Shown here one piece after another: positions 4,508 to 62,731 of a DNA stretch of 64,000 bases (positions are counted from its first letter, which is position 1; each line of letters starts with the position of its first letter). The notes beneath the pieces are model-generated. The model was not told the DNA's origin, made no database searches, and saw only the letters and a list, made by a program, of their open reading frames with translations. Source of the stretch: a virus; the IMG/VR virus record IMGVR_UViG_3300036832_001118, positions 23,761-87,760 of that record. One strand, given 5' to 3'. A program made the position numbers and the translations under genes.

Positions 4508-4518
4508 GGAGAGAAGTT

Positions 4519-4704
4519 ATGGCGGAACAGTATTATAGCGTTCGACCAAAGACGGTTTTCCAAGCCAATGACGTGATTTTCTATCCGGGGCGCGGCGACT
4601 ACATCGTTGCGGAGAGTGTTTATAACGGTAAGACCGATGATGGCCAGGCCAATTTTATGGACCTGTGCGAGTCGGCAACGCCGGTTAACGCTCCGGGCAG
4701 TTAG
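4519..4704 (+). CDS. Small tail-region protein, 61 aa
   Basis: Starts at ATG 4519 after a good AAGGAGAGAAG site, 11 bases past the preceding stop. The product (MAEQYYSVRPKTVFQANDVI...) is soluble-looking, with a YPGRGDY segment, and no family was recognised. It lies between two fibre-type genes and ends one base before the next start, so it is probably co-translated with them as an accessory fibre or baseplate component. Confidence 0.5.
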   Translation: MAEQYYSVRPKTVFQANDVIFYPGRGDYIVAESVYNGKTDDGQANFMDLCESATPVNAPGS

Positions 4705-4705
4705 A

Positions 4706-6067
4706 ATGGGTCAGATAATAGACCCCAACTCACTGCTGCTTAAGACCGATCAGCAGCCAGCGAATGTCGCTTTCTTCAACAATCTGATTAGCCAGATGTG
4801 TTTTGCCATCAACGGCGTTGGCACTCGCATGGATGGCTACGATGCTGCTGAGCAGAACTTGGTCAATCTGGGACTGGCCAACATCAATTCCACGCTGGGT
4901 CCCTTCCTCAGCACCCTGCAGCAGGCAGCGCAGTTAGGGTTCCTGGTGGCGGAGGCGGATGGTGTTACGGCCTCGCTGACTCTGGGGCAGCCATTCGAGC
5001 TTGTGCTGACCAGCAATGGCGCCAGCCTGTTCACCCCGACCACATGGCTGATGGCCATGGACGTGACCGACAATACCAACTGGGGCGTGCTCCAGCTGGT
5101 GAGTTGGGTGCAGGAGGACTTGAACCTCTCCACCACCTGCATCTACGCCAGCAAGACCAAGGCATCTGCTTCGTGGCAAGTGTGCTGCGGCAGTGGCGTG
5201 CTCAATGCCATGGTCAACGATCTGCAGGCTGCCAACACTGCGGCGACCAATGCGCAGAACGCGGCCAGCAGCGCGCAGACCAACGCCAATTACGTGCAGA
5301 GCGTTGCCACCACAATATCGACGTCTGGCAACGTCATCTCGGTCGCGGGCAAGGCCGGCACCGTGACGCTGGTCGAGGGTGACATTGCCAACCTGACCTC
5401 GGACTTGGCAGCGCGGCCGACCAGCACCTACGTTAACAATGCCGTGGCTGGGCTGCAGCCGCGCAGCGCCAACCTCGATCAATTGTCGAGCAGCGCCCTG
5501 ACCGCGTTCGGCTTCGCGCTGTTCAGCGCCGCTAATTCCGCCGCCGCCATGACGACACTGGGTGCGGCAGGGTTGATCAGTCCTAGCTTCAGCGGTGTGC
5601 CCAAGGCCCCAACCCAGGCACCGGGAGATAACTCAACCAACATCAGCACGACGGCATTCGTTGCGGCAGCGCTTACAACAGCGCTGGCCAGTTATCAGAC
5701 GACAGCTGGCTTGGCTACCGCAGTCGCTGGGTTGACCATTAACTCGAATCAGATAGCCGCCGCCTTCAATGACCAGACCGCCACCAGCTACACCTTTGCG
5801 GCGAGCGACGTTGGTAAGCAGATCACCCTAACCAACAGCGCCGCCATAACTGCCACCCTACCGAACAACTTGCCCAAGGGCTGGAACTGCTTGGTGTGGC
5901 AGGGCGGCGCCGGGCAGGTGACGTTCACAGCTGGCAGCGGTGCCACGCTAGTCAACCGCCAGAGCAAGACCAAGACCGCCGGGCAGTACGCGATGGTCAG
6001 CTTGATGGTGATGAGCAATAGCATTGGCACCAGCGCGGTGTACGCGCTTGGCGGGGATGCAGCCTGA
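4706..6067 (+). CDS. Tail fibre protein, 453 aa
   Basis: The chosen start is ATG 4706 (MGQIIDPNSLLL), one base after the preceding stop; a longer frame from 4607 would overlap the 61-residue gene. The middle has Ala/Asn-rich helical sequence (about residues 165-200) and the phage fibre motif APGDNSTNISTTAFVAAAL. The C-terminus (TYTF-type strand, AITATLPNNLPKGWNCLVWQ) is a common fibre tip or trimerisation module. The stop overlaps the next gene (TGATG), which suggests coupled translation with the SPRY protein. Confidence 0.7.
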   Translation: MGQIIDPNSLLLKTDQQPANVAFFNNLISQMCFAINGVGTRMDGYDAAEQNLVNLGLANINSTLGPFLSTLQQAAQLGFLVAEADGVTASLTLGQPFELVLTSNGASLFTPTTWLMAMDVTDNTNWGVLQLVSWVQEDLNLSTTCIYASKTKASASWQVCCGSGVLNAMVNDLQAANTAATNAQNAASSAQTNANYVQSVATTISTSGNVISVAGKAGTVTLVEGDIANLTSDLAARPTSTYVNNAVAGLQPRSANLDQLSSSALTAFGFALFSAANSAAAMTTLGAAGLISPSFSGVPKAPTQAPGDNSTNISTTAFVAAALTTALASYQTTAGLATAVAGLTINSNQIAAAFNDQTATSYTFAASDVGKQITLTNSAAITATLPNNLPKGWNCLVWQGGAGQVTFTAGSGATLVNRQSKTKTAGQYAMVSLMVMSNSIGTSAVYALGGDAA

Positions 6068-10893: not shown

Positions 10894-13800
10894 ATGGACG
10901 ACATCCTCGCCAGCGCTCAAGTTGTTTTGGAAGGCGTTGACAAAGTCAGTCCTGCTGCGACCTCGAGTATAGACGCGCTCAAACGGCTCGCCGCGACTGG
11001 CGCTGATGTACAACGGCAGCTGATCAATGCCGCACAGAACCATCAGCAAACGCTGCAAGTCCTTAATAAAATTTATGCGCAGAACCAGCAGGCGGCACAA
11101 GCCGCGGGTACGGGAGCGACCCAAGCCGCCAATGCAGCATCTCAGGCGGTTCAGAAGCATACGCAAACGGTCCAACAAGTACCTCCCGCACTTAATGCGG
11201 CGGGACGTGCCGCCAATCAGCTGCAGAAACAACTGACGGATGCGTTCTCGGTCTATGCGATTGAGGAGTTCATTCGCAAGTCTTACATGGCTTTCACCAG
11301 CCAAGAATTGGCGATGCGTAGAGTTCAACTCGCCGCTGGCGGCACGACAGAGGAGATCAACAAGGTACACCGGGGACTGCACGATATAGCCACCGAAACT
11401 AACCAAGCGACCGAGAATATGGCCAAGGCGTTTCGCGACTTTCAGGCCCGATCCGGGCTGGGCTATGGTGAGGCAGTAAAGGCGTTTAGGGCCGTGGCTG
11501 ATGCCGCTGATTTGGCTGGCGTCCACGTTGACGCGATGTCGCGCGTTGCCACGGCGGCGATGGCGCAGTTGAACATCAACGACAAGGAATTGTCGCAGCT
11601 CATGGGAGCTTTTGGCAAAGCCTTCGCCGGAATGGGCAGTGAAGCTTTGCATGTCATGCCGAATATCATTGCCTTGATGCAGCGGCTTCATATCACCGGA
11701 AAGGATGCGCTTGAAGGAGTTGCTGCTGCTATCCAGGCTACAGGCAAGCTACAGGGCTCAGCTGAGGGGGCCGCGCGCGGGTATCAGGCCATCGTCGACC
11801 TGGCGTCTCGTCCAGATACTAGGCTGGGTTATGTACTTCAAGACAAAGTTCAAGCCGTTGCGGATCATATTGGCGACACTACCGATTTATACGCGGCTGC
11901 CCTTGAGAAGATGCGAGAGGAATGGAAGAAGACTGGCGGCAATTTTCGCAGCGAGATGATGCAATTGAATTTAATGTTTGAGGGCAACCAAGACGCAATA
12001 CAAACGGCCCGAGCTGCCATGAAGTTATCCGATGAGGAATTTAAAAAATACATTCAAGACTTGAAGGAAAAAATGGCGACAGAAAAAGAAGCCGCAAAGC
12101 TACATGAAGAGACCATGAGAGGAGCAATCGACGGAACGCGTAAGCTCATTGGCGCCTGGAATGATTTGGAACTTTCGATCGGCGGGCTCCTGGATAAGCT
12201 GGGCGCAACCGACAGTCTGAATAGTACCGTCACTGATTTGAAGAAGCTCACGGAATTGCTTGAGTGGCTAGATAAGTTCATGAAAGAGCATATGAGTATG
12301 GGAGGGCTCGGCGGTGTAACAAGTGGATTTGGTCTCGGGACGCGGTTTCGCGAGCATATTTTAAGTCTTCCTCCCGCCTTCAGCATGGGCACCCCGGCGC
12401 CGCCGAGAATGCAATCTGGCGGCGTTGTCACTGAACCAACCGTCGCAATGATCGGCGAGGCTGGGCCCGAAGCGGTCGTGCCGCTCGGCGGTGGTGGCGC
12501 TGATATGCGTGGCGCTGACGGCGGCACTCAAGCCGAGCGTGAGGCGGCCGAGATGTGGGGACGTCTGCATGGTCTGGCCGGAGCGCGCCACAAGCACGTC
12601 GATCTGAAGGGCCAACTCAGCCAAGAGGAATTGGACAAGATCCTGCAAGCTGAGGGAGGTGGCGGCCCTGGTGGTGGCGGCCGTGACACCGGGTGGGGAC
12701 CGGGGAGTGGACGCGGGGGAACCAGAGGGGACGGCACCTCTCGTGGTGACGGCAGAACTGACGACAATAGAACTTCCGATGTGAAGCCGCCTCCAGCGGC
12801 AGCGCCACTGCCAACGCAAGGCGCGGCTGGCATCCCTGGGTTACCCGGCAGCCCATCCGGTCCAGCGCTGACGCCTGAAGAGCGCAAAGCGGCGGGGGCG
12901 CCGAGCGGTGGAACAGGAGGAGAATTTCAAGCCGGTGGAAAGTACTCAAAATCACAGCAGGCGGCCATCAATGCCGTTGTAAATGAATGGCGCAAGGCTG
13001 GAATGTCTGATGTTGGCATTGCAGGTGTTCTTGCCAACATTCGTGAGGAATCTACATTTGATCCAACTTTGCGACATCCCGATCAGCCAAAATACGGCGG
13101 TGAAGCGCATTTTGCGCATGGCTTGTATCAGGAAGGCGGCGCTGAATGGAATAACTACGTAAGTTGGATGCAGCGGAATTATCCAAAAGGCGATTGGCGT
13201 GATCCGAAATTGCAAAGTGAATTTGCTGCTAAGAATTTGCGCGAAGGGATAGGCGACGCGCGTTATAAGGCAGTTTGGGAAAGGATGAAAAATGCCAAGA
13301 CGCCAGCGGAAGCAGCAGCGGCTTATGTTGAAGGTTATTTGAAACCTGCCGCAAAATATCGAGAAAAACGCGTTCGTGAGTTCAGGGCCGGTGGCGCTCC
13401 CGGTTTAGAGACATATGGAACCGGAACTGGTGGCCCCGCTGAGATAGCGCGACCCGACTTGCCGCCGATAGGTCAGGTCGCCGGGCTGCCGGGTGGGCCG
13501 TCTGGTCCGAGCCTGACGCCGGAACAAAGGAAAGCGGCTGCGACTGGTGGCGGTGGGGGCGGCGGCGAGGGTGGTGGCAGTGTGATCTCTCCATTCCCAG
13601 GCGCTCATGGGTTTGGAATCGGGTCTAGCAATGTTTATGGAGCAGGCAGAAGCGGAGGGCGCCGAGCGCATTCAGGTAATGATCTTCATGCCGGTGATAG
13701 TCCGGGGTCGACTCCGAATGGCACGCCTGTAGTGTCAATGACTGGTGGTACGGTTCTCTACAACGGCAGGAATTCGGGATATGGAGCAAATATTGTCATC

Positions 13801-14973
13801 AGGGGCGATGACGGCATTATTCGTAGATACGCAGTTCATGGAAGTACTGCGGATCTAAAGCCGGGAGCGCATGTTGATCAGGGGCAGTTCATTGGTCGCA
13901 TTGGGGAGAACCATCTCCATTACGAGGAAATTCCGCCTACCAGAAATGGTAGGGACAATCCAGTCTATCATGAATTTGAGAGAAATGCGAGGACCAATAC
14001 ATTTACCAACACAGCAAACCAAAGAGGAACCGTTGATCCTTCTGGCCCCCACGGATCATTGCAGAACATAGGCAAGAAAAAAGAGCAGGTCGACCAAGCA
14101 ACCGGCCCGACGAAGCCTGGCGGCAAGGGCACCAAGCTCTTCATTCATGGAATGAATTATGAGCGCTTTGGTGACGCCAGCAAGATACAAGATGAGATCG
14201 AAGCGGATGTGCGGCGTCAAGCAGCGGCCGAGGGTTACGACAACGTAGAGTTTGTTCGCGGCAGCAATAACCAGCAAAAAATTGCTGAGGCCGATGCGCG
14301 TCTGAAGAAAGGGGGTATCACGAAGGTTGATGGCTTCTCGCAGGGTGGCTACATTATCAATAATCACCTGCGAAAGAGATATCCAAAAATTGCTATGACG
14401 GATTATGGTGCCACAAAAAGTGGCGCTGATCCTAATTTCCCTGGCGTCAAACATATGCAGTTGCCGAAGGCGGCGGCTGATAGAGCTGTCGAAGAGCGTA
14501 AGGCGCGCGAGGCCAAGGCGGCACCAGCGCCTGCTGTCCGCAGCGCTGAAGTTGAGCGCGGTGAGGCAGCTGGCCTACAGGCGCGCCTCGCCCAGGCTGA
14601 CAAGGAAGCGGCGGCAGCTAAGCCCAAGAAGGAAGCGGCAGGACCGCCGCTAGCATTGAAGACGGCTAAGGCGATGGCCGAGGGCGGCATCGTCACGCGA
14701 CCGACCGATGCGCTCGTTGGCGAGGCGGGTCCCGAGGCGATCATTCCGCTGGACGGTGGCGGCTCAAGTAGTTTGGACATTGACAGTTTGCTCCGGCAAC
14801 ACGCCGAGTTGCAGGCACATATGAACCAAAATCCGATCGAGGTGCCGATGGCTGAGCCGCATCGCATGGGGGGCGGTCGCCAACCGTTCGGTCGCATGAT
14901 TGAGATGTCGCGACGTAAGACCGAAGCGCGCCGCACGGCACATGAAGTGCCGCTCGATACAGGGCCGATGTAA
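10894..14973 (+). CDS. Tape-measure protein 1 with lysozyme, M23 and serine-hydrolase-like segments, 1359 aa
   Basis: The N-terminal ~420 residues are Ala/Gln-rich helices typical of tape-measure proteins that set tail length. Two GGxVTxPTxAxxGEAGPEA boxes (about 509 and 1264) are standard tape-measure motifs. Cargo in order: a tail-lysozyme-like domain (about 690-840) with Glu718/Glu719 in NIREESTFDP; an M23 endopeptidase-like domain with His926 and Asp930 (HSGND), His982, and HLH at 1007-1009; then a segment with FIHGMNYERFG and a nucleophile-elbow GFSQGG (Ser1149), as in alpha/beta-hydrolases. The domains probably act on the wall during injection. The first ~160 residues and the tail motifs are clearly paralogous to the next gene, which starts on this gene's stop. 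Confidence 0.88.
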   Translation: MDDILASAQVVLEGVDKVSPAATSSIDALKRLAATGADVQRQLINAAQNHQQTLQVLNKIYAQNQQAAQAAGTGATQAANAASQAVQKHTQTVQQVPPALNAAGRAANQLQKQLTDAFSVYAIEEFIRKSYMAFTSQELAMRRVQLAAGGTTEEINKVHRGLHDIATETNQATENMAKAFRDFQARSGLGYGEAVKAFRAVADAADLAGVHVDAMSRVATAAMAQLNINDKELSQLMGAFGKAFAGMGSEALHVMPNIIALMQRLHITGKDALEGVAAAIQATGKLQGSAEGAARGYQAIVDLASRPDTRLGYVLQDKVQAVADHIGDTTDLYAAALEKMREEWKKTGGNFRSEMMQLNLMFEGNQDAIQTARAAMKLSDEEFKKYIQDLKEKMATEKEAAKLHEETMRGAIDGTRKLIGAWNDLELSIGGLLDKLGATDSLNSTVTDLKKLTELLEWLDKFMKEHMSMGGLGGVTSGFGLGTRFREHILSLPPAFSMGTPAPPRMQSGGVVTEPTVAMIGEAGPEAVVPLGGGGADMRGADGGTQAEREAAEMWGRLHGLAGARHKHVDLKGQLSQEELDKILQAEGGGGPGGGGRDTGWGPGSGRGGTRGDGTSRGDGRTDDNRTSDVKPPPAAAPLPTQGAAGIPGLPGSPSGPALTPEERKAAGAPSGGTGGEFQAGGKYSKSQQAAINAVVNEWRKAGMSDVGIAGVLANIREESTFDPTLRHPDQPKYGGEAHFAHGLYQEGGAEWNNYVSWMQRNYPKGDWRDPKLQSEFAAKNLREGIGDARYKAVWERMKNAKTPAEAAAAYVEGYLKPAAKYREKRVREFRAGGAPGLETYGTGTGGPAEIARPDLPPIGQVAGLPGGPSGPSLTPEQRKAAATGGGGGGGEGGGSVISPFPGAHGFGIGSSNVYGAGRSGGRRAHSGNDLHAGDSPGSTPNGTPVVSMTGGTVLYNGRNSGYGANIVIRGDDGIIRRYAVHGSTADLKPGAHVDQGQFIGRIGENHLHYEEIPPTRNGRDNPVYHEFERNARTNTFTNTANQRGTVDPSGPHGSLQNIGKKKEQVDQATGPTKPGGKGTKLFIHGMNYERFGDASKIQDEIEADVRRQAAAEGYDNVEFVRGSNNQQKIAEADARLKKGGITKVDGFSQGGYIINNHLRKRYPKIAMTDYGATKSGADPNFPGVKHMQLPKAAADRAVEERKAREAKAAPAPAVRSAEVERGEAAGLQARLAQADKEAAAAKPKKEAAGPPLALKTAKAMAEGGIVTRPTDALVGEAGPEAIIPLDGGGSSSLDIDSLLRQHAELQAHMNQNPIEVPMAEPHRMGGGRQPFGRMIEMSRRKTEARRTAHEVPLDTGPM

Positions 14974-17900
14974 TGGATGAAGTTGTCGGCAGCGCCAAGG
15001 TTGTTCTGGAGGGTATCGATAAGATTAGCCCTGCCGTAACAACCAGTATCGATACACTTAAAAAGTGGGCGGCAAGTGGCGCCGATGTGCAACGGCAGTT
15101 GATCCAGGCTGCGCAGAAGCATCAACAAACACTGCAAGTGCTTAACCAGATCTACGCACAGAACCAACAAGCCGCACAAGCTGCAGGCGGCGCAACGACA
15201 CAAGCGTTCAATGCAGGAACGCAGGCGGCTCAGCAATTAACGCAGGCGGTTCAGAAAGTGCCGCCCTCACTTATTAATATCGGACAGGCCGGCGCCGTCT
15301 TACAAAAACAAGTCGCCGGCTATTTCTCGATCTACGCGATTGAGGAGTTCATTCGCAAGTCTTACATGGCTTTCACCAGTCATGAAGAACATATGCGGCG
15401 AATTCAACTCGCCTTTGGCGGTACCACAGAGGAGATCAAAAAACTACATGGTGAACTGAGTAGCCTGGCGGCAGCGGTCGGGTCAACAACAGAGAAGATG
15501 ACTGACGACCTCCGTGCGTTTATGGCCGGTTCAGGACTTGGACGCGGCGAGGCACTGGAGGCGTTCAAGGGTATTGCCATGGCGGCCGACGAGGCCGGCA
15601 TTCACGTGCAGGATATGTCACGCATTGCCACAATGGCAATGGCACAGCTGCAAATTAGCACGCGAGAGATGCCCCAGTTAATGGGGTCAATGGGTAAGGC
15701 TTTCGCTGAAATGGGCGCTGCGGCCGCGCGCGTCCTGCCGAATATCATCACTTTGATGCAGCAGATCGGCCTTACAGGCAAAGCCAATCTGCAAGCCGCC
15801 TTGGCCATCGCCGAGGTCAGCACAAAAGCTACCGGCGACGCAGAGATTTCTTGGCGTAATCTGCAGACCATATTGCAGCAAATGGGCGATCCCGAAAGCA
15901 AATTGAATCGTCAGGCGGCGGATAGGTTCGACGCTTTCAAACAGAATATTGGCGATACCATCGATGCATACATGATTGCCGTTGATTGGACGCGGGATGT
16001 TATGAAGCGGCATCCCGACATCCGCAGCGTAAACGCTGAAATGGATTGGATGTTTGGCCATAATGTGCAGCTGCAGGAACAGTTAAAACACGATGCGGCA
16101 GTCGAGCGGGATGAGTTATATAAAACATTACGGGCCCAGAAGGATGCGCTCGGTAATGTCAAGGAGATCGATGAGGCGCATCAAAAGTTTGTAAAGGGCT
16201 CAATAGATGGAACGCGTCGGCTCTCGCAAGCTTTGATCGACGTGGCAGTATCGGCCGGTGGATTTCTTGATTCGATTGGCATGACTGATACTTTGCATAG
16301 CACTGTTACCGACCTGCAACATCTCAAAGAACTCATTGAATGGTTTCAAGGGAAGAGTAAGGAGGGCGAAGACAAGGGCGGCGTTCCGAACGATGCTTCA
16401 GAGTACAGGGACATGCTGCGCCGCCGAATACACCCACCGGCTAAGCCAGAAATCAAGCCACATCAATCTGGTGGCGTTGTTAGTGAGCCGACCTTGGCAA
16501 TGATCGGTGAGGCTGGGCCGGAAGCCGTGGTCCCGCTGACACGCGGCTTTGATATGCGCGGCGCCTCGGGCGGTACGCAGGCCGAGCGGGACGCCGGGAC
16601 AATGTGGGCTCGCTTGCATGGTCTGGCACTAACGCGGACCAAGCATATCGATCTGCACGGGAAGCTGACGCAGGAAACCATCGACAAGCTGATGGGTGGC
16701 GGGGGCAGCTCTGGCGGAGGTGGCGCCAGCGGGGATTCCAGCGGGGCGAGCGGGACACCGACGGGGACAAGCAGCACGACGGGTGACAGCAAATCAACTG
16801 GCGATAGCAAGGCTGATACAGGCGGTACGCAACCGGCCCCGCCTGGGGCAGAGGGAACATTCCGACCTGTTTATAAACTAGGGGGTGCTGATCTCAGCGA
16901 CGCCGTCGTCAATACGATTGCCGGCGAAGCTTACACCAACAATCAAGAGAGCGTCGATGCTGTCATCAATAATATGCTGAATCGCGTCGGATCGAAAGGC
17001 TGGGGGCCATCCGGCGACATGCAACAGGTAGCACGCGCGCGCGGTCAATATGCTGGCTATCGTAAGGCCAATGCTAAAGAAGCTGAATTTATTCGTAACA
17101 GAATCAAAGCCATCGCGTCCGGTGGGGTTAAAGACAACACTGGTGGATCAAACGAATATCGAGCAGGTTCCTACCGCGGGCCTTGGTATCAACATCATCG
17201 CGACGCACCAGTAGTTGGTGGCAATCGATTTGGCTTTAATCCAAAAGTTTCAAATGGACCTTACGCTCCTTATCCAACCAAGATGATGGCCAAGGGCGGA
17301 ATTGTTACGAAGCCTACGCTGGCGACGATCGGCGAGAATGGGCCAGAGGCCGTGGTGCCGCTCCAGGAGGTGGGTACAAAGGGGCAACAACAGCAGTTTT
17401 GGGGAATGCCGAGTGAGGGTGGAAAGGAGGGAGAAGCGGATTTAGATCCAGTACGTGCATTAGCGTTCGAGAATGAAAAAATTTTAGGACAGCCTGGGCG
17501 TCATCGTGCTTCGCAGTGGCACGAGTGGTTGAAGCAAAATCCCTATGGCCGTGGGGTAAGTGAGGGAGAAGCTATAGGTACCAATCCATTTGGGGTTCGA
17601 CAAAAGGAGTATTTGAAACAGCTAGAACGTACAATGGAGGTACAGGGAGATAACCCTGATCTCGATAAGAGAGTCTTGGAAGATTTAGGCCCTCGTCCAT
17701 CGCAAGCCAGCCTCACTGGTGGCGGCGGCTCTAGTGGTGGTGCCGGTGCCAGCATGAACTTCGGTGGTGGCTTTGGCGGCGGCGAAACATCTGCACCGGA
17801 AGGCTACACGCCGAGCGTGGCCAACATACATCCAAACGCTCATGGATTTCTTAACGCGATTGCTAGCACAGAGACAGACTTCAGCGAAAGAGAGGCTTAC

Positions 17901-18473
17901 TCCGACGCGACTAACGTCAAGAGCTACGGCGGCAACACGTCGATGTACGATTACGGCTACTATCAGATGGCTCAGCGTGACATCGACTATGCTGTCAAAA
18001 CTCTGCACATGTCTCCGGAGATAGCTCAGCATTTGACTGGTGGGCCTGATCATAAGAGTACGCTCGATCAGCAGACTGCTTCCGTTAATGAATATTTGCA
18101 GCGGCGTTATCCAGACGCTTATAGAAATCTAGTGGAGCGCGGTGACTATGAAGGCATGCGCCAGGCCACGAGGCATGGCAAAAGCTGGGTTTGGTTTGGC
18201 CTGAAAGACAAACCCAAGCAAGCTTTGACTGAGTACAACAAGGTCGCGCAGCCGCAGACCACGGCAGTGACGCCGCTGCCCAAGTCGCGACCGGCATCGG
18301 CGCAGGCAAGCGCACAGACCCACTTCAACAACAACCCGATTCAGGTGCCGGTCGCCCCGGCCAAGCTTGGGGCACACCGCCAATCGTTTGCGCGCAGCGC
18401 TGGTTGGGCGCAGCGCAAGGCGCATGCCCGCAGCGCTCGACAGGAAGCCACGGTTCATACCGGGGAGATGTAA
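14973..18473 (+). CDS. Tape-measure protein 2 (paralogue) with SleB-like and lysozyme-like domains, 1166 aa
   Basis: The N-terminus closely mirrors the upstream protein (GADVQRQLI, HQQTLQVLNxIYAQNQQAAQAAG, IYAIEEFIRKSYMAFTS), and it carries the same two tape-measure boxes (about 500 and 775). The cargo differs: residues ~635-760 resemble a SleB/cell-wall hydrolase (DAVVNTIAGEAYTN with Glu in GEAY; NRFGF), and ~955-1085 a lysozyme-like fold with Glu967 in ASTETDFSE and YGYYQMAQRD. Translation is coupled through a TAATG overlap. Both genes are intact and rich in helix-forming sequence, so both may be built into tails or they may be alternatives. Confidence 0.85.
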   Translation: MDEVVGSAKVVLEGIDKISPAVTTSIDTLKKWAASGADVQRQLIQAAQKHQQTLQVLNQIYAQNQQAAQAAGGATTQAFNAGTQAAQQLTQAVQKVPPSLINIGQAGAVLQKQVAGYFSIYAIEEFIRKSYMAFTSHEEHMRRIQLAFGGTTEEIKKLHGELSSLAAAVGSTTEKMTDDLRAFMAGSGLGRGEALEAFKGIAMAADEAGIHVQDMSRIATMAMAQLQISTREMPQLMGSMGKAFAEMGAAAARVLPNIITLMQQIGLTGKANLQAALAIAEVSTKATGDAEISWRNLQTILQQMGDPESKLNRQAADRFDAFKQNIGDTIDAYMIAVDWTRDVMKRHPDIRSVNAEMDWMFGHNVQLQEQLKHDAAVERDELYKTLRAQKDALGNVKEIDEAHQKFVKGSIDGTRRLSQALIDVAVSAGGFLDSIGMTDTLHSTVTDLQHLKELIEWFQGKSKEGEDKGGVPNDASEYRDMLRRRIHPPAKPEIKPHQSGGVVSEPTLAMIGEAGPEAVVPLTRGFDMRGASGGTQAERDAGTMWARLHGLALTRTKHIDLHGKLTQETIDKLMGGGGSSGGGGASGDSSGASGTPTGTSSTTGDSKSTGDSKADTGGTQPAPPGAEGTFRPVYKLGGADLSDAVVNTIAGEAYTNNQESVDAVINNMLNRVGSKGWGPSGDMQQVARARGQYAGYRKANAKEAEFIRNRIKAIASGGVKDNTGGSNEYRAGSYRGPWYQHHRDAPVVGGNRFGFNPKVSNGPYAPYPTKMMAKGGIVTKPTLATIGENGPEAVVPLQEVGTKGQQQQFWGMPSEGGKEGEADLDPVRALAFENEKILGQPGRHRASQWHEWLKQNPYGRGVSEGEAIGTNPFGVRQKEYLKQLERTMEVQGDNPDLDKRVLEDLGPRPSQASLTGGGGSSGGAGASMNFGGGFGGGETSAPEGYTPSVANIHPNAHGFLNAIASTETDFSEREAYSDATNVKSYGGNTSMYDYGYYQMAQRDIDYAVKTLHMSPEIAQHLTGGPDHKSTLDQQTASVNEYLQRRYPDAYRNLVERGDYEGMRQATRHGKSWVWFGLKDKPKQALTEYNKVAQPQTTAVTPLPKSRPASAQASAQTHFNNNPIQVPVAPAKLGAHRQSFARSAGWAQRKAHARSARQEATVHTGEM

Positions 18474-41730: not shown

Positions 41731-41955
41731 ATGCTTGATCGCATGACGCACAAGGTAAGAGACGCTGGCGTAATAGCCGCGATTGAGGCCGCTGGCGGCA
41801 TTCGCGCTTTGGCCCGCGCCCTCGATCTCTCCCATGTGTCGGTGCTCCGGTGGACGTCGGTGCCGATCCGATACTTGCTACAGATCGAAGAAATCACCGG
41901 CGTCCCGCGCGAGAAACTGCGGCCCGAGCTTTATCGCAAGCCAAGGCGCCCATAG
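41731..41955 (+). CDS. YdaS/Cro-like HTH protein, 74 aa
   Basis: ATG 41731 follows GGAGAAACC. It has a short helix-turn-helix (GGIRALARALDLSHVSVLRW, then VPIRYLLQIEEITGVPREKL) typical of YdaS-type Cro repressors. It is divergent from the 134-residue gene, so it probably regulates the shared promoter region. Attachment-type repeats lie downstream. Confidence 0.7.
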   Translation: MLDRMTHKVRDAGVIAAIEAAGGIRALARALDLSHVSVLRWTSVPIRYLLQIEEITGVPREKLRPELYRKPRRP

Positions 41956-42068
41956 CTTTTGAGCCCGTGGCCGGTACTCGGGCATAGGGCGGCCCGGCCA
42001 ACTGCACGATCTGGTCCATCAGCCTCCCCGCGAACCTTTGCGGAACAAAAAACCAAATCTTGAGCACG

Positions 42069-42205
42069 GGTGAGAATTTTGGTGAGAATTTGCCTGCTAA
42101 GTGCTTTCGCTGCCACACTGCCGTATTTTTGCAACGAAGTTGTCAGTGTTTATAGATCAATGGGTTACAGACGAATTCTCACCAGAAAGTTCTCACCGGT
42201 GAGAA
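42069..42205. other. Candidate attP: five GGTGAGAA arm-type repeats
   Basis: GGTGAGAATTT occurs directly at 42069 and 42081. Inverted copies are GAATTCTCACC at 42173 and the first half of a perfect 16-base palindrome TTCTCACCGGTGAGAA at 42190-42205. The ~80 bases between the groups would hold the core. It lies at the 3' end of the integrase gene group, in a 290-base stretch (41956-42244) with no gene. Confidence 0.5.
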
Positions 42206-42244
42206 TGTGCACAGAGCGCGAACAAAGGCTTAAGTCACCCCTGT

Positions 42245-42602
42245 TCATGCGGTATCTGAATCGCCTAATTCAGTCGGAACCTGCCAAATTGCTTCGGCAT
42301 TGCGGATCATGTTGAGAATTTTGATCGACACGCGCGTGGGGCGCCATCCCTGATGCCAGCGAAGCCGAAATTCAGCCTCGGGCATTAGTGTCGGCCCAAA
42401 CTCTTGGTACCAAGCTGCCCATGCCAACGCCAAGGCGTCTTGGCGCGCCTGGGCGAGATAGTGAGCATAGGCTGCGCGGAACTTTTTCGTGCCTGGGGTA
42501 CCTGGGAGCGGTCCGTAATGTTGGGCCTTAGTGCGGAAATAATAATATTTGCTCTTGCGCCGCATCACGAAGGTCGGAAGGTTCAGTTTTTTTTGCAGGC
42601 AT
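42245..42602 (-). pseudogene. Integrase N-terminal-domain-like protein with an A8 frameshift
   Basis: The frame encodes LNLPTFVMRRKSKYYYFRTK and then YGPLPGTPGTKKFRAAYAHY, parallel to the integrase N-terminus (LPHLNIKKGRYYFRTK; GALPAPDDPTFNVEYMRK). No catalytic domain follows. A natural start ATG at 42602 (MPAKK...) is one base out of frame because of an 8-base A run (T8 at 42587-42594); seven A's would fuse start and body into about 118 residues. It may be slippage-expressed, mutated or a sequencing error. If made, it could compete for arm-type sites. Confidence 0.5.
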
Positions 42603-42609
42603 GTCCGCG

Positions 42610-42726
42610 TCAGCCGCCGAACAATTTCATGAAGGCGGCGCCCGCTGCGAACAAGGCAGCGCCTGCTGTCATTCCTATCAAGGCAAGCTGCCAAGGGGCG
42701 AGGCCTTTGCGGGGGCCCGCCGACAT
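42610..42726 (-). CDS. Small membrane protein, 38 aa
   Basis: ATG at 42726 overlaps the integrase stop (TGATG). One membrane span (ALIGMTAGAALFAAGAAFMK) follows a short basic start (MSAGPRKGLAPWQL). It is coupled to integrase translation; function unknown. Confidence 0.5.
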   Translation of the reverse strand: MSAGPRKGLAPWQLALIGMTAGAALFAAGAAFMKLFGG

Positions 42727-43847
42727 CACGCTACCGCTTCCCACTTGTCCATGGCGGTGTCGTTGAGGCTGCGCTTATTCGCCTCCTGCACGTAGTAGAG
42801 CGCCATTTTGGGGGTGCGATGGCCGAGCACCGCCATGATCTCCGGGACCGTCGCCCCGGCCTCGGCCAGGGCAATGCCAGCGTTCTTGCGCAAGCCGTGC
42901 AGGGTGTAGCCCTTGGCGCCGATCTCGCGCAGCCGGTCCTTGACCCGATGCGACAGCGAATCGGCCGTATAGGCGCGCTTCCAGGACGAGGTGAGAATGA
43001 ACTTGTCGTGCTGCGGCCATGCTTGCAGAAAGGCCAGCAGCGTCTTGTGCACGCGCAGCGACAGTGGCTCGTTGGTCTTCTCCTGCACGACCCGGATACG
43101 TACGCCGGGCGCCAGCGGGCCGGAGAGGTCCGACCATTGCATCGCGATGACGTCGCCGCGCCGCTGCCCGGTATAGAGCAACAGGTGGAAGGCGCATTGC
43201 ATCGACGGGTTGGCGCCGGTGAGAAACGCCTTGATGACGTGCTCGGGCCACGGCTTATGCGCCTGCTTGACCTTGTAGTAAGTCTTGGCCTCGCGCGTCG
43301 GGTTGACCTTGCCGGTAGCTTGGAACTCCGGAAACCCCTTGGCGAACTCCCACAGATTGGAAATCAGCCGCAGGTGCTGGTCGGCGGTCGAGGCGCCATG
43401 CTCGCGATAGATGCCGGCCGTGTAGTGGTCGAGGTTGGTGACATCGACATCGTGCAACTGTGCGGCACCGATACGATCGCGGATCATGTTGAGATGCTTG
43501 CCGTAGTTATAGCGGGTCATCTTGGCGAATGCGCGGAACTCGCGCGCATGTTCGTAGTGCAGGATGAGCCAGCCGATTGAGCCCGGCAGATACGCGACCC
43601 GCACTGGTTGCGTCGGCGGCGCCAACAGTACCGCAGCGAATTGGCCCGCCATCTCTTTCGGCACCGGCACATCTGCGGCGCGGCATTTGCGCATATATTC
43701 GACGTTGAAGGTCGGATCATCTGGCGCCGGGAGCGCACCACCATAATAGGTTTTGGTGCGAAAGTAGTAGCGGCCCTTTTTGATGTTGAGGTGGGGCAGC
43801 TTCGTGTGTTGCTGCTCAGTCCTCGGTTTCGTTATCACGGTGCGCAT
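42726..43847 (-). CDS. int: Tyrosine recombinase integrase, 373 aa
   Basis: An arm-binding-like N-terminus (to ~45) and a core-binding domain (YEHAREFRAFAKMTRYNYGK) precede a catalytic domain with Arg in LLLYTGQRRGDVIAMQW, HGLRKNAG, GHRTPKMALYYV (nucleophile Tyr351 or 352) and a conserved Lys region. It performs phage integration and excision. The upstream frame encodes an excisionase-like protein that overlaps it; the candidate attP lies ~520 bases downstream. Confidence 0.92.
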   Translation of the reverse strand: MRTVITKPRTEQQHTKLPHLNIKKGRYYFRTKTYYGGALPAPDDPTFNVEYMRKCRAADVPVPKEMAGQFAAVLLAPPTQPVRVAYLPGSIGWLILHYEHAREFRAFAKMTRYNYGKHLNMIRDRIGAAQLHDVDVTNLDHYTAGIYREHGASTADQHLRLISNLWEFAKGFPEFQATGKVNPTREAKTYYKVKQAHKPWPEHVIKAFLTGANPSMQCAFHLLLYTGQRRGDVIAMQWSDLSGPLAPGVRIRVVQEKTNEPLSLRVHKTLLAFLQAWPQHDKFILTSSWKRAYTADSLSHRVKDRLREIGAKGYTLHGLRKNAGIALAEAGATVPEIMAVLGHRTPKMALYYVQEANKRSLNDTAMDKWEAVA

Positions 43848-44112
43848 GACGTCTAAATCCTAAAACCTTATCCATTGTATTGGCGCGTCCTTCGCGCGGC
43901 TGCAAATCATCCCAAGCCGCCTCAAGCTCCAGTCGATCCCAGCGCGGAGCCCCACGCAGGCGCCGCGGCTTGGGCATCAGCCCGGTCTCAACCAAGTCGA
44001 GGAACAGCGACTTGGAAATGTCGAGGTAGGCCGCCGCCCGGTCCGCCCGCAACGCCCGCGGCGGATAGGCCAGATGATCTTGCAGCTTCGGCGTACTCAC
44101 CGTCCGCTCCAT
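43816..44112 (-). CDS. Excisionase/AlpA-like HTH protein, 98 aa
   Basis: A MerR/AlpA-type helix-turn-helix (LRADRAAAYLDISKSLFLDL, then VETGLMPKPRRLRGAPRWDR) as in excisionases that direct tyrosine integrases. Starts at 44112 or 44124 are possible; 44124 lies in the operator palindrome. The 3' end overlaps int by 32 bases. It probably controls the direction of recombination. Confidence 0.7.
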   Translation of the reverse strand: MERTVSTPKLQDHLAYPPRALRADRAAAYLDISKSLFLDLVETGLMPKPRRLRGAPRWDRLELEAAWDDLQPREGRANTMDKVLGFRRHAHRDNETED

Positions 44113-44123
44113 AACATATAGCA

Positions 44124-44141
44124 TGTCAAGCTAGCTTGACA
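44124..44141. promoter_or_regulatory. Perfect 18-base palindrome upstream of xis/int
   Basis: TGTCAAGCTAGCTTGACA. On the minus strand TTGTCA and TATATG lie 16 bases apart, so the palindrome may cover a leftward promoter for xis/int. The half-sites match the dyads at 35436 and 49627. Proposed repressor site. Confidence 0.6.
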
Positions 44142-48552: not shown

Positions 48553-49221
48553 TCAAAGGGAAAAGTTGGTGCGACGGCGGATGGAATACACCACAGGTCC
48601 GATAATGTGGATGGCTCTGGCGGAAATATTTTGATCCTCGCCTTGACGACAATTCACCAACAAGGATCCGTCCTCGCCCCGGCGTAACTTCGCGAGCATG
48701 TACTTTTTTTCGAAGATTGCGCCGTAATAGCCGTCTGTGCTGAAGCGGTTGGCGGCGCGATCGAGAATGACAATATCTCCACGCCTGAATTCTGGTGGGA
48801 GTGCTTCGCCAACGCGGACTGCAATCAGCTTATCAGGCTCCGCGCCGAGACGTTGGACATCGGAGGCTGGCACCGCCCATTCACGCCGTGTTCGATAATA
48901 TCGCCATTCGATTTCATCATCGGGGTCGCCCCGACGCAGCCGCACATTGAGGTTCGCGTGATCCTCGAGATCCATCTCTGGCACCCAGAGCGGGACCTCT
49001 GCCCAGAGCGGCGCAGGCCCGGCGGCGAAGCGCAACCATCCTGGTGTCGTCGCCAGAAGTTGCGCGATCTGCTCGATCTTTGCTGGAGGTATGTCGATCT
49101 GACCCAACTCCATTTGGCTGAGCGCTTGCCGGCTGATGCCGAGATGCTTGGAGAGGGCGTAGGCCGAGAGACGTGCGATCTCACGCGCCTGTCGCAATCG
49201 CATTCCTGGAGTGGCTTTCAT
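48553..49221 (-). CDS. CI-like repressor with S24-like C-domain lacking the catalytic Ser, 222 aa
   Basis: The start at 49221 (MKATPGMRLRQAREIARLSA) is favoured; ATG 49254 lies inside the operator. N-terminal XRE helix-turn-helix (LSAYALSKHLGISRQALSQM). The C-terminal part has the S24/LexA-like frame GDIVILDRAANRF and YMLAKLRRGEDGSLLV, but the nucleophile position reads VGEALPPEF in place of a Gly-Ser-Met type box. RecA-stimulated self-cleavage is therefore unlikely. It probably represses the divergent cro-like gene and the other CTTGACA dyads. Confidence 0.75.
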   Translation of the reverse strand: MKATPGMRLRQAREIARLSAYALSKHLGISRQALSQMELGQIDIPPAKIEQIAQLLATTPGWLRFAAGPAPLWAEVPLWVPEMDLEDHANLNVRLRRGDPDDEIEWRYYRTRREWAVPASDVQRLGAEPDKLIAVRVGEALPPEFRRGDIVILDRAANRFSTDGYYGAIFEKKYMLAKLRRGEDGSLLVNCRQGEDQNISARAIHIIGPVVYSIRRRTNFSL

Positions 49222-49246
49222 GTGTTGGCTGGCCCCGCTAAGGTTA

Positions 49247-49276
49247 CTTGACATAGCGTCAAGGGAGCCGCATCTT
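49247..49276 (+). promoter_or_regulatory. Operator dyad and rightward promoter between CI- and Cro-like genes
   Basis: CTTGACATAGCGTCAAG (49247-49263) is an inverted repeat. Its TTGACA (49248-49253) serves as a -35 with CATCTT 17 bases on. It covers the longer possible start of the repressor. Repression and autoregulation are likely. Confidence 0.6.
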
Positions 49277-49307
49277 TCGTCGCCAAATTGGAAGGGGGCT
49301 ATTTGCC

Positions 49308-49622
49308 GTGCCAGGCCAGCCCGACTGGGACAAGCTAAATCGCGAGGCGGTGCTGGAGGTGCGCCGCCTGTCGGCTTTGAAGTTAGCGAAGCCGGGCCAG
49401 GGGCCTGACCAGGGTCTCGCAACCTTGGCCAGGCGGTTGAACATCAGCCGACAGGCAATCGCGCTTTGGGAGGCTCGTGTTCCAGAAGCCCATGTGCCCG
49501 CGATCAAGCGCATCCTCGGCATTCCCCAGTACAAATTGCGCGGCGACAAGTGGAAGCCGTCGCGTAAGGCCAATGGCAACGCGCCCAAAATGGCCAAGCC
49601 CAGGTTAAAGCAAATTCCTTAA
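49308..49622 (+). CDS. Cro-like HTH protein, 104 aa
   Basis: GTG 49308 follows GGAAGGGGG at a long spacing. The HTH (GLATLARRLNISRQAIALWE) is followed by VPEAHVPAIKRILGIPQYKL, a YdaS/Cro arrangement. Divergent from the CI-like gene with an operator between, as in a lambda-type switch. The C-terminus is basic. Confidence 0.7.
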   Translation: MPGQPDWDKLNREAVLEVRRLSALKLAKPGQGPDQGLATLARRLNISRQAIALWEARVPEAHVPAIKRILGIPQYKLRGDKWKPSRKANGNAPKMAKPRLKQIP

Positions 49623-55162: not shown

Positions 55163-55513
55163 TTACTGCTTTTTTCGCGTCCTAACAAGCTTCGCGATGT
55201 GCTTGCTGGTGATAAATCCGGCCTCAAGTGCAGCGGCTTTGTTAAGAATAGCAGCTTGCGATTGTCCGTTCATCCAATATCCACCTGTATGCACATGTAT
55301 GGCAAAGCGGATCTGAACTTTGACTGCATCTCCTGATTTGGCACCAACTATACGGGCAAAGGATTCGCAAAATTCATCAAACGAATTGTTGATCCCGCGA
55401 CCGGGCGCAGGGGCGGATGGTGATTCCCATTCGGTCACGGCCCCAAACAGGACAATAAGCCGTTCGTAAAGATGCTTGCGCCCCACAGGCGTCCATATGT
55501 CTGGATCATGCAT
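55163..55513 (-). CDS. Hypothetical protein, 116 aa
   Basis: ATG 55513 overlaps the methyltransferase stop by 8 bases. Contains VQIRFAIHVHTGGYWMNGQS and a Lys-rich tail. May act with the methyltransferase; no family was recognised. Confidence 0.5.
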   Translation of the reverse strand: MHDPDIWTPVGRKHLYERLIVLFGAVTEWESPSAPAPGRGINNSFDEFCESFARIVGAKSGDAVKVQIRFAIHVHTGGYWMNGQSQAAILNKAAALEAGFITSKHIAKLVRTRKKQ

Positions 55514-56399
55514 TTGTCATCTCCGGTTGGCGCACCCTTTGTCTTGACCATGAATCCGGTTCCGGCCGCACGATGAAGCCAATGCGTCCGAATTCATGCT
55601 TGAACGCATCGGGCTGCGGGCCGAAGTAGAAAAAGGCTTGGCCCTGTGTCGGTTGGGCTAAGCCGCCGTCGCAATCTTGGAACTTGATCCGACCTTGCGT
55701 GAAGCAGACGCAATCAGCCGCTGATATCGCGTCGTGAAACCACATCGCGTCGGTGAAATTGTGGGTCAGCGCAATGCAGGCGCTGACGCGATGGGAATTC
55801 CATTCACTGATCAGTTTGCTGATGAACTTGCCCATGGTCGGCTGTTGATACGGTGAATTGAGCCAGACCCGTCCGTACCACGGTTGATGCAACCCGTTTT
55901 GCTCTTTGTCGAAGTACTGCTTCGCCTTAACCGTCCGCTGCGCCTGCTCGCAGGATGCGGGGTCGAGATCGATATCGCCCAAAACCGCGCGTGCCCGCGA
56001 GATATATTCGAGCGGCGTATACCACTCATTGCGCCTGCGCGCGATCGTGCCGCGATACTTGGGACGAAACTGAAAGCTGATCAGTTGCCTGATCTCAGCG
56101 GCCCGCGCTAAATCCTCAACTGTGGCGCAGGGATTGGTGACGATCTCCTCAAGCTGGTTGGCCAGCTGCCAGTTTGCCGCCAGCCACTCGGCGCCTTGGA
56201 TCAGCGAGCGTGCTGCGGGCTCGTTAAAGCCGAGCACGTCCTCATGTGCTCTGATCCAGCTCTGCCATTGCTTGTGGCCAAGCGATTCCTTGCACTTGAT
56301 CAGCCCCTTGCCCGCCTCACTCAAATAAAACGGTCGGTCGTTGCTTGATGTCCTGGCCTTGCGGTAAAGAACACCGATGGCGATGGCAGCCTCGGACAT
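55506..56399 (-). CDS. Dam-type adenine methyltransferase 1 with DUF3102-like N-domain and NSPY motif, 297 aa
   Basis: Residues ~30-70 (CKESLGHKQWQSWIRAHEDV; GFNEPAARSLIQGAEWL) resemble DUF3102. Residues ~130-280 match the phage N6-adenine methyltransferase family (NEWYTPLEYISRARAVLGDI; DLDPASCEQAQ; GQAFFYFG). The catalytic tetrad, normally N/D-P-P-Y/F, reads NSPY in VWLNSPYQQP, so activity may be altered. Paralogous to the 345-residue protein that ends at 57292; the ParB-like gene lies between. Confidence 0.75.
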   Translation of the reverse strand: MSEAAIAIGVLYRKARTSSNDRPFYLSEAGKGLIKCKESLGHKQWQSWIRAHEDVLGFNEPAARSLIQGAEWLAANWQLANQLEEIVTNPCATVEDLARAAEIRQLISFQFRPKYRGTIARRRNEWYTPLEYISRARAVLGDIDLDPASCEQAQRTVKAKQYFDKEQNGLHQPWYGRVWLNSPYQQPTMGKFISKLISEWNSHRVSACIALTHNFTDAMWFHDAISAADCVCFTQGRIKFQDCDGGLAQPTQGQAFFYFGPQPDAFKHEFGRIGFIVRPEPDSWSRQRVRQPEMTNA

Positions 56400-56405
56400 G
56401 GCTGA

Positions 56406-57308
56406 TCACATCGTGGTATATGTTTCATTTAGTCGTGAAACATCAAGGCGTCCTGACTTGCCCGGATGTTTGTTGATGTTGTCAGCCAGCCAACGCGCTA
56501 TCTGCAGCGGCATGTCGCCAGGATGGATGCGCAACGCTTTGGCCCCAGTCTTGGCCCAGCGCGTCTTGACATGCTCGATAATCTCATCAGGCGGATGATT
56601 GATGAGTTGCTTGCGCACCGGCTCGTCGATCGGACGCGGCTGCGAGTCATAGAGAATCGCAATGCCAAACACCATGTAGCCGTAGACCCTATATCGGTCC
56701 TTCCAGCATTCCCTGATCGAGTTAAGCGATTTGACCATGACGCCATGCCTGGGGTCCATATCGAGCTGCCAGGCTTTTTCAACGTAGCTGGGCCCGCGCA
56801 AATTGCGCTTTCCCTTGCCGTTCAAGGTATAACCGCAAGCTTCGATGGCGGCCTCAAAGCCCTTGTCAGTGCCAGCCACGCCGTAAGAATGCAGCGCCGT
56901 CTCTTTTCGAATAAACTCCTTGAGGCGCCGCGAATTGGTCAAGGCGAACATCTGCGCCTCTTGAGCCTGACCGGTAGACTGAAACACCTTGCAGTCGACT
57001 TCGCGGTCTTTCTCACCGCGACGAACGAGGCCCTCCTTGCGGGTTACGCCGTCATAGATCCAGTAACTACCGTTAGGTCGTTGCGCGACAAGAAATACAT
57101 CAAGCCACGCCTCGTAAAATTCGTGCTCAATGTTATGGGCGATGCGCTCGCGCGGCCGGGTCTGATAAGACCAGTCGACCTCGAGCTCGCTGAGCTTCAG
57201 TCGAGTAATGATTCCTGATTGATGCAGGATCGGCGCAAGGAGCGCGGCTTCTTCAGGCGAAAGGATCGACTTTCGCTGCTTTCCCTTGCCGTTAAGTTTC
57301 GTCGCCAT
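56406..57308 (-). CDS. ParB/sulfiredoxin-like protein, 300 aa
   Basis: The start at 57308 is chosen for GAGGAGGAACAAG; the longer frame is inside the adjacent methyltransferase. A ParB-N-like core is seen (LSELEVDWSYQTRPRERIAH; YWIYDGVTRKEGLVRRG; EAQMFALTNSRR). The rest is helical, with a possible second domain (AIEACGYTLNGKGKRNLRGP). Such proteins accompany phage methyltransferases. Anti-restriction or partition roles are possible but undecided. Confidence 0.65.
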   Translation of the reverse strand: MATKLNGKGKQRKSILSPEEAALLAPILHQSGIITRLKLSELEVDWSYQTRPRERIAHNIEHEFYEAWLDVFLVAQRPNGSYWIYDGVTRKEGLVRRGEKDREVDCKVFQSTGQAQEAQMFALTNSRRLKEFIRKETALHSYGVAGTDKGFEAAIEACGYTLNGKGKRNLRGPSYVEKAWQLDMDPRHGVMVKSLNSIRECWKDRYRVYGYMVFGIAILYDSQPRPIDEPVRKQLINHPPDEIIEHVKTRWAKTGAKALRIHPGDMPLQIARWLADNINKHPGKSGRLDVSRLNETYTTM

Positions 57309-58329
57309 CTTGTTCCTCCTCGTTTTTTTCCTCCGGTAGCGGCTCGTATAGACGACTCGGCCGCAGACACAGGCCAATCACACAGAACACATCCTCAAAC
57401 CGCTGCACATCGTTGCCGAAGTAGAAAAATGCCTGACCTTGAGTTGGTGCTCCTACAATTTCGGCGGGGTGGAATTGAATCCGACCACGCGTGAAGCAGA
57501 TGCTCTGACAGACGCCCACCGCCGTATTAAACCACTCGGTATCGGTGGAGTTGTTGGTGAGCATGATTGCCGCAGTGATGCGACCTGATGCAATTTCCGC
57601 AACTAATTTGCTGATGAAGGCGGGCAGCAGCTTTTTATGATAGGGCGGGTTAAGCCATATGCGGCCGCGCCATTCCTGGCTCAAGCCGTCATCCTCAATC
57701 GTGAAGTAATCGGTGGCGTCTACTGTTTGCTGCGCCAGATCGCATGAGGCTGGATCTAGGTCAATCTCACCGAGCACTCGGCGTGTCGCCTCGATGTATA
57801 TGGCGGGCGTATAACGTTCGATTTCTCCGGTGCCTTCGGTGCCGCGCACGGTGCCGTCATTTTGCTGCTCGCAAATGCGCGTGGCGCGGTGCTTGGCGAC
57901 GTTTTGGCGCGAGACGATCTTGTCCGGATCGCTGATCCATTTTGATCGCTTGTCCGGCTTAGAACAAAAGCGCGTGTTCCAGCGATGAATTACGAGGTCG
58001 CCGGGATCGGCAGCGGGTAAGTAGGATTTCAGTGCTGAAATCCTACTTATGCCTTTTCGGCCCGATGATGCTGCTTTCTGCGATGATTCTACCGCCTCAT
58101 TGCGCCAAACGAGGTATTTGACTTGCTCGTCTATCTTGATTTTGATGGCTTTTTCCAACTGCTCACGCGCAAACGGGTCCTTGGTCTCACGCCACGCGCG
58201 GGCCCAATGCCGCTCGCCAGCCTCCGCGACGGCGATCGTCTTGAGGCCCTTATCGGGATCGTAGATGGTAACCGAGCGCTCTGCACCCAGCTCGACAAGC
58301 TCGCTCAAATGCTCGCTGATTTTGGCCAT
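57292..58329 (-). CDS. Dam-type adenine methyltransferase 2 with canonical NPPY, 345 aa
   Basis: Catalytic half (about residues 185-320): ERYTPAIYIEATRRVLGEID, LDPASCDLAQQ, IWLNPPYHKK and GQAFFYFG, a phage N6-adenine methyltransferase. The N-terminal half (KTIAVAEAGERHWARAWRET; KIKIDEQVKYLVWRNEAVES) is unlike methyltransferase 1. A 32-base palindrome sits in the linker, coding for ISRISALKSYL near residues 94-104. The 3' end overlaps the start of the ParB-like gene. Confidence 0.8.
   Translation of the reverse strand: MAKISEHLSELVELGAERSVTIYDPDKGLKTIAVAEAGERHWARAWRETKDPFAREQLEKAIKIKIDEQVKYLVWRNEAVESSQKAASSGRKGISRISALKSYLPAADPGDLVIHRWNTRFCSKPDKRSKWISDPDKIVSRQNVAKHRATRICEQQNDGTVRGTEGTGEIERYTPAIYIEATRRVLGEIDLDPASCDLAQQTVDATDYFTIEDDGLSQEWRGRIWLNPPYHKKLLPAFISKLVAEIASGRITAAIMLTNNSTDTEWFNTAVGVCQSICFTRGRIQFHPAEIVGAPTQGQAFFYFGNDVQRFEDVFCVIGLCLRPSRLYEPLPEEKNEEEQDGDET
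58018..58049. repeat. 32-base perfect palindrome inside methyltransferase 2 gene
   Basis: 15-base arms (TAAGTAGGATTTCAG and its complement) flank TG. It is read in frame without disturbing the gene. A related, imperfect copy lies at 63264-63291. It may be an inserted palindromic element or a protein-binding site. Confidence 0.75.
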
Positions 58330-58388: not shown

Positions 58389-59711
58389 TCAAGGAATGTT
58401 TTGCGGAAAGCCAACCATGGCGGCGTCATGCGCGCCCAAGAACCAACGCGCAATGCGCCCGGACAGCGATGGACACTGTGGGATAGTCGGCGTAACCGGC
58501 GCCGCCGGGGCGAGCCCATAGGTCAGCAAGTCATAGGCCGAGACGCGGTCAATGGCGCCCTCATACTTGCCCGCGATCGGCGAGGTATCCAGCACAGCCT
58601 CGCGCTCTTGCGCCGTCAACGGGCCAATACGTGAGGATGGCTTACGTATCTGGATGCGTTCTACCGGGCTCGGTGCACCGGTCTGATTCAGGAACGACAC
58701 CAGCGCCTCGCCGGTGCCGAGCTGCATGATCACCTTGGCGGTGTCGAGCTTGGGGTTCGGCCGGAAGGTGTCTGCCGCAGCTTTAACGGCCTTCTGATCG
58801 CGTGGCGTGAAGGCGCGTAGCGCGTGCTGCACGCGGTTGCCCAGCTGCCCCAGCACCTTGTCTGGGACGTCACGCGGGTTCTGGGTGACGAAGTAGACGC
58901 CAACACCTTTGGAGCGGATTAAGCGCACCACGTGCTCGATCTGATAGAGCAATGGCTTGGGCGCGTCGGTGAACAGGAGATGCGCCTCGTCAAAGAAGAA
59001 CACCAGCTTGGGCTTGTCCTGATCGCCGACCTCGGGCAGCTGCTGTTCCATTTGCGTCAGCAGCCAGAGTAGGAATGTGGCGTAGAGTTGCGGGTTGTGC
59101 ATCAGCTTATCGGCCGCCAGGATATTGATGCGGCCGCGCCCCTGTGCGTCAGTGCTGAGAAAGTCATCCAGCTCGAGCGAAGGCAAGCCAAAGAAATGGT
59201 CTGCGCCTTGGTTCTCCAGCACCAGGATCTGACGTTGGATGGTGCCGGCCGTTGGCTTGGACACGCGGCCATATTCGGCTGACCAGATGCTACCGGCTGA
59301 TGTGGTCAGGAAGGTCAGAAGGGCGCGCAGGTCCTTGAGGTCGTCTAACAGCATGCCGTGATCGCTGGCGACGCGAAAGGCAATGTTGAGTGCACCCTCC
59401 TGAACTGCGTTGAGGCCCATCATGCGGCTGAGCAGGATCGGACCGATGCTCCATATCCGCGCTCGCACCGGGTGACCCTGCTTGCCAAACAGGTCCCAGA
59501 ACAGCACGGGAAACCGATCTGATGCCGCAATGCCGGATAAATCGCCCTTGACGTCAGCGGCGAACACGGGGACGCCGGCACGGGAAAAACTCTCGGCTAA
59601 TCCCTGCAGTGTGACCGTCTTGCCGGTGCCCGTGGCGCCGGTGATTAGGCCGTGCCGGTTGGCCAGCGCAAGGTTCAGGCTTGCGCCTTTGCCTAGAAAT
59701 ATCTGATCCAT
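58389..59711 (-). CDS. HerA/DUF853-like ATPase (YjgR-like), 440 aa
   Basis: The start at 59711 follows GGAGGGGAATAAA. Walker [21 protein letters not shown] (about 21-40), then [13 protein letters not shown], Walker [13 protein letters not shown] (about 237-248), and [20 protein letters not shown] with an arginine-rich finger region. This matches DUF853 AAA ATPases related to HerA DNA translocases. They are usually bacterial and are rare in phages. It could pump DNA, assist recombination or act in phage-phage defence; no partner nuclease is adjacent. Confidence 0.75.
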
Positions 59712-62329: not shown

Positions 62330-62524
62330 GACGCGAAAACCGAGTTTAGGGTCATTCTGTCAACTATATCACAATAATTTGATATGATGGCACAGGATAC
62401 CTCTTTGGCGCAGTCAAATATGGGTGCGCCATAAGTTTTTAAAATTGGCGCCTTTATGGCGCATCATGGCGCAGGGCGACGCGTCAATACCCCCGCAAAA
62501 CTCGCATTTGCGCCATTGCGCCAT

Positions 62525-62553
62525 GCGGGGGGTGCGAAGCACACACCCCCCGC
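62525..62553. other. GC-rich hairpin in the motif array
   Basis: 10-base arms GCGGGGGGTG and CACCCCCCGC around a 9-base loop, no T-run. It is unlikely to be a terminator and fits a structural site within the origin/packaging candidate. Confidence 0.6.
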
Positions 62554-62731
62554 CGCTTCGCTATGGCGCACTGGACGGCGCCGCAAAGCGTGCATGGCGC
62601 AATGGTGCAAAGAAAATGCGGGTTTTGTGGCTTCGTGCGGCGCCAGCCATTTTCGCTTCCGCGGCTTGACCTTTAAGAAAAAATAGAAGAAATTTGGCGC
62701 GCGTTGAAAAGAGACAAGGCACAAGGGAAAC

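Follow-up and report, generated by a model that had tools for sequence, protein, structure and literature searches.

A probable lambda-type attachment site beside the only tyrosine integrase gene of an uncultured phage

The gene-free stretch at 41956–42244, flanked by two genes that converge on it, carries a cluster of short repeats about 0.5 kb past the 3′ end of an integrase gene (int), and raises the question of whether these repeats constitute the phage attachment site (attP) or serve another function. The analysed window comprises the last 64 kb (64,000 bases) of an 87,760-base IMG/VR virus record, IMGVR_UViG_3300036832_001118. The first 736 bases of the record (L010, 1–736) and its last 723 bases, at the end of the window, overlap with 90% identity, pointing to residual read errors and a closed genome; judging from its sequence, the record probably represents an unintegrated phage genome that is closed and was obtained from error-prone reads. 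Since the ends overlap, the genome appears to be circular and unintegrated, and an intact attP should therefore be present. The overlapping ends fall within a serine resolvase gene. A search with PF00589 revealed a single integrase in the whole record, which is the only tyrosine integrase gene of the phage. The following genes surround the gap:

41731–41955, plus strand: YdaS/P22-Cro-like gene
42245–42694, minus strand: open reading frame on the far side of the gap, between int and the repeat cluster, with a stand-alone relative of integrase-type arm-binding domains
42726–43847, minus strand: tyrosine integrase of 373 amino acids (PF00589, 4e-14; phrog_1, 1e-34)
43816–44124, minus strand: candidate excisionase gene, small and winged-helix-like, which overlaps the start of int

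The first-pass annotation had described five copies of GGTGAGAA as arm-type sites, with a direct pair at 42069/42081 and an inverted group including a perfect 16-base palindrome, in a gene-free stretch next to the integrase. All these elements were found at the positions given for them, and are listed here together with the other elements of the gap:

42069–42076, plus strand: left-arm site 1, exact match to GGTGAGAA
42081–42088, plus strand: left-arm site 2, exact match to GGTGAGAA, 12 bases after site 1
42119–42136, no strand assigned: putative crossover core, TGCCGTATTTTTGCAACG
42155–42167, plus strand: possible IHF site, GATCAATGGGTTA, with one mismatch to WATCAANNNNTTR
42176–42183, minus strand: right-arm site 1, GGTGAGAA, inverted relative to the left arm
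42190–42197, minus strand: right-arm site 2, GGTGAGAA, left half of the palindrome
42198–42205, plus strand: right-arm site 3, GGTGAGAA, right half of the palindrome
42216–42227, no strand assigned: block GCGCGAACAAAG outside the right arm

The direct pair is separated from the inverted group by 87 bases (42089–42175), and the palindrome, TTCTCACCGGTGAGAA, occupies 42190–42205. The clustering is beyond chance: GGTGAGAA occurs 10 times in the whole window against 1.4 copies expected, a count reached in none of 100 shuffles, and the five copies in the cluster compare with a maximum of three per 200 bases for any 8-mer when the entire 87.8-kb record was dinucleotide-shuffled 20 times. Another cluster that exceeds chance, with seven copies of ATGGCGCA in less than 180 bases, was detected at 62425–62601.

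The adjacent integrase comprises an arm-binding domain (about residues 20–57), a core-binding domain (about 91–176), and a catalytic domain (about 200–372), and its catalytic residues R229, H317, R320, H343, and Y352 are conserved among close relatives. In a structure model built with 38 aligned relatives (pLDDT 90), residues 20–57 adopt a beta-beta-beta-alpha fold (pLDDT about 90), followed by a disordered linker (72–81) and then by the core-binding and catalytic domains. The top Foldseek matches of the model were full-length lambda Int–DNA complexes (1z1b/1z1g), aligned over about 360 columns with the arm-binding domain included. According to the model, the N-terminal domain is an arm-binding domain of the lambda type.

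A pattern scan for GGTGAGAA repeats revealed a second phage, the 85-kb viral contig L002, which encodes an integrase 80% identical to that of the window, with five GGTGAGAA sites beside its gene. Alignment of the two loci showed that the left-arm pair lies within a 23-base stretch identical in both phages, with site 1 in the same position and orientation; the 18 bases of TGCCGTATTTTTGCAACG are likewise all identical (18/18), while the flanks of this block differ, and GCGCGAACAAAG is also identical. In the right arm of L002, the first and the last sites are kept, the last one in the same position and orientation, and the middle one lies at nearly the same place but is flipped, so that the palindrome is absent. 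The palindrome is most simply explained, from this comparison of sequences, as a by-product of two single sites standing head to head rather than as a conserved operator. Its absence in L002 argues for single integrase sites and against a repressor operator. The same scan yielded seven other loci with GGTGAGAA repeats (L003–L009), none of which encodes a relative of the window integrase in the stretches examined; these repeats were regarded as coincidental.

More distant integrases are accompanied by the same architecture. L020, L021, and L022, whose integrases are 43–45% identical to that of the window but differ in the N-terminal region, carry a two-sided cluster in the same layout with another arm motif, TTTTACAG. 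In L027 and L081, with integrases about 25–31% identical to that of the window, a direct pair spaced by 12 bases is separated by about 110 bases from inverted sites, each locus having its own motif; the arm motif of the further relatives with this layout is TTGCAAAC or TTGGAAAC. Across the relatives, the arm motif and the integrase N-terminal domain change together, and these sets of co-varying motifs and domains provide data on how arm-binding domains read DNA. In the gap of L081 lies the 3′ portion of a tRNA-Pro, which matches annotated tRNA-Pro genes at 90% identity. The gap of L089 holds a tRNA-like 3′ portion that ends in CCA; its Rfam tRNA score of 21.8 bits (E = 0.028) falls short of the gathering score. 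Crossover cores of tRNA origin are a hallmark of attP sites. The tRNA 3′ parts between the arms of L081 and L089 thus mark the inter-arm position as the core position in this integrase family.

Altogether, the tyrosine integrase of 42726–43847 very probably has its attP at 42069–42205. The lambda-type attP proposed in the first-pass annotation is thereby upheld, given that cluster, integrase, and core move together in L002, that relatives share the architecture and two of them carry tRNA 3′ DNA between the arms, and that the integrase has a predicted lambda-type arm-binding domain.

The perfect 16-base palindrome and the adjoining YdaS/P22-Cro-like gene could also suggest that a phage repressor or Cro-like protein uses the sites as operators, with the palindrome serving as a dimer operator. 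This is very unlikely, because the stretch is bordered on both sides by the 3′ end of a gene and contains no promoter or terminator match, no GGTGAGAA was found ahead of the regulator genes at 41731, 48553–49422, or 49308, and L002 has a flipped middle site and no palindrome. Even less probable is a dimer-resolution site of a plasmid-phage, similar to Cre/lox, rather than a site of integration into the host. The apparent circularity of the record and the lack of a detected host attB are compatible with it, but the window integrase has the lambda layout and the cores of relatives are derived from tRNA genes; Cre-type systems are not known to have an arm-binding domain or arm sites. The least probable of the alternatives is a replication origin with the repeats as its iterons: they are short, partly direct, and intergenic, as iterons would be, but their inverted two-sided layout surrounds a conserved core, such repeats are linked to integrases across the relatives, with a motif that changes with the integrase N-terminal domain, and the relatives have tRNA 3′ segments at the same position.

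If the region is the attP, the N-terminal domain of the integrase would bind the five GGTGAGAA arm-type sites, two in the left arm and three in the right, while the core-binding and catalytic domains would act at a core near 42119–42136. The arms would be folded back by a bending protein, probably IHF or one like it, allowing an integrase tetramer to bridge arms and core and to exchange strands with a matching host attB. Integration would split the two arm groups between the two ends of the prophage, and the excision factor would probably come from the small gene at 43816–44124.

The core was previously placed within 42092–42172; the location between the arms is supported, and the range can be narrowed to 42119–42136. 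The block TGCCGTATTTTTGCAACG is taken as the putative crossover core, its definition depending solely on the identity of the two phages there, and its place relative to the arms is that of the cores of tRNA origin in L081 and L089. Unlike the cores of these two relatives, it showed no tRNA similarity and no Rfam match. The exact 18-mer was found in a single viral contig, L002, and a plasmid search with the core returned only chance-level matches (E = 9). No attB, attL, or attR was found; integrase scans of genome contigs gave no relatives, and consequently there were no prophage junctions to read. Plasmid-borne relatives of the integrase are mostly alphaproteobacterial, which is a tentative hint at the host. 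With this locus, an uncultured phage group has a full integrase/attP module, whose short core could serve to trace the host gene.

The possible IHF site of the window is suggested by a weak match, 0.18 such matches being expected per 280 bases, and it is not kept in L002, which has none. In the related attP regions, IHF matches are exact in L020, L022, and L089, and L021 has one with a single mismatch; those of L020, L021, and L022 lie near the arms.

The assignment of the 43816–44124 product as an excisionase is tentatively suggested by its position, its conservation, and low-scoring profile matches (phrog_66 excisionase, 3e-4; phrog_25900, 1.5e-8; TIGR01764 below the cut-off). An 85% identical homologue occupies the same place in L002.

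The product of 42245–42694 matches positions 14–61 of the integrase profile (hhalign 93.8%, E = 1.7e-7) and an N-domain HMM (2.7e-8), while its remaining C-terminal part is not integrase-like; the start of the frame is uncertain because of a run of eight A near the likely start. The arm domain shows no specific closeness to the integrase of the same phage, a search of viral contigs gave no close relative of the frame, and L002 has a different open reading frame between int and attP. It is conceivable, though rather doubtful, that this product is a free-standing arm-binding protein competing with the integrase on GGTGAGAA or assisting it; if so, the phage would have a further, separate means of controlling integration and excision. 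In L072 (about 4513–4965), an integrase-type arm-binding domain is fused to a MUG113/T5orf172 (GIY-YIG-type) nuclease domain, in a protein starting right at the end of the integrase gene there.

A lambda-type attP is a known arrangement, ordinary in kind, and what is new here is the phage group carrying it. Lambda Int holds the arm sites with its N-terminal domain and works on the core with its remaining part (PMC4880445). The locus studied here resembles this system in its heterobivalent integrase with an N-terminal arm-binding domain and in five arm-type sites flanking the core (PMC4880445), but the arm motif is unrelated, the core is different, and the arm groups are inverted; bending sites lie between the core and arms of lambda attP (PMC4880445), whereas the IHF site of the window is only a candidate. 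The attP of ICEMlSym(R7A) from Mesorhizobium, used by IntS, spans 283 bases and likewise has five arm-type motifs, all of them needed for integration (PMC11963761); it differs in its motif (TGKTGGTATC), in an excision factor gene located away from int, and in belonging to an ICE rather than a phage. In the cluster K mycobacteriophages CrimD, Anaya, and Adephagia, pairs of arm-type sites lie on either side of the core, the right pair being inverted, and a different arm motif goes with a different N-terminus of the integrase (PMC3203893); however, these are actinobacterial phages with a core in tmRNA, an attP located 5′ of int, and four sites.

Elsewhere in the window, the adjacent open reading frames 10894–14973 and 14973–18473 (1359 and 1166 amino acids) have similar starts and partly similar DNA, and are perhaps duplicated tape-measure genes. 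The gene at 58389–59711 on the minus strand gave a 628-bit HerA_C match, here in a phage genome, and two Dam-type methyltransferase genes (55506–56399 and 57292–58329) are located near it.
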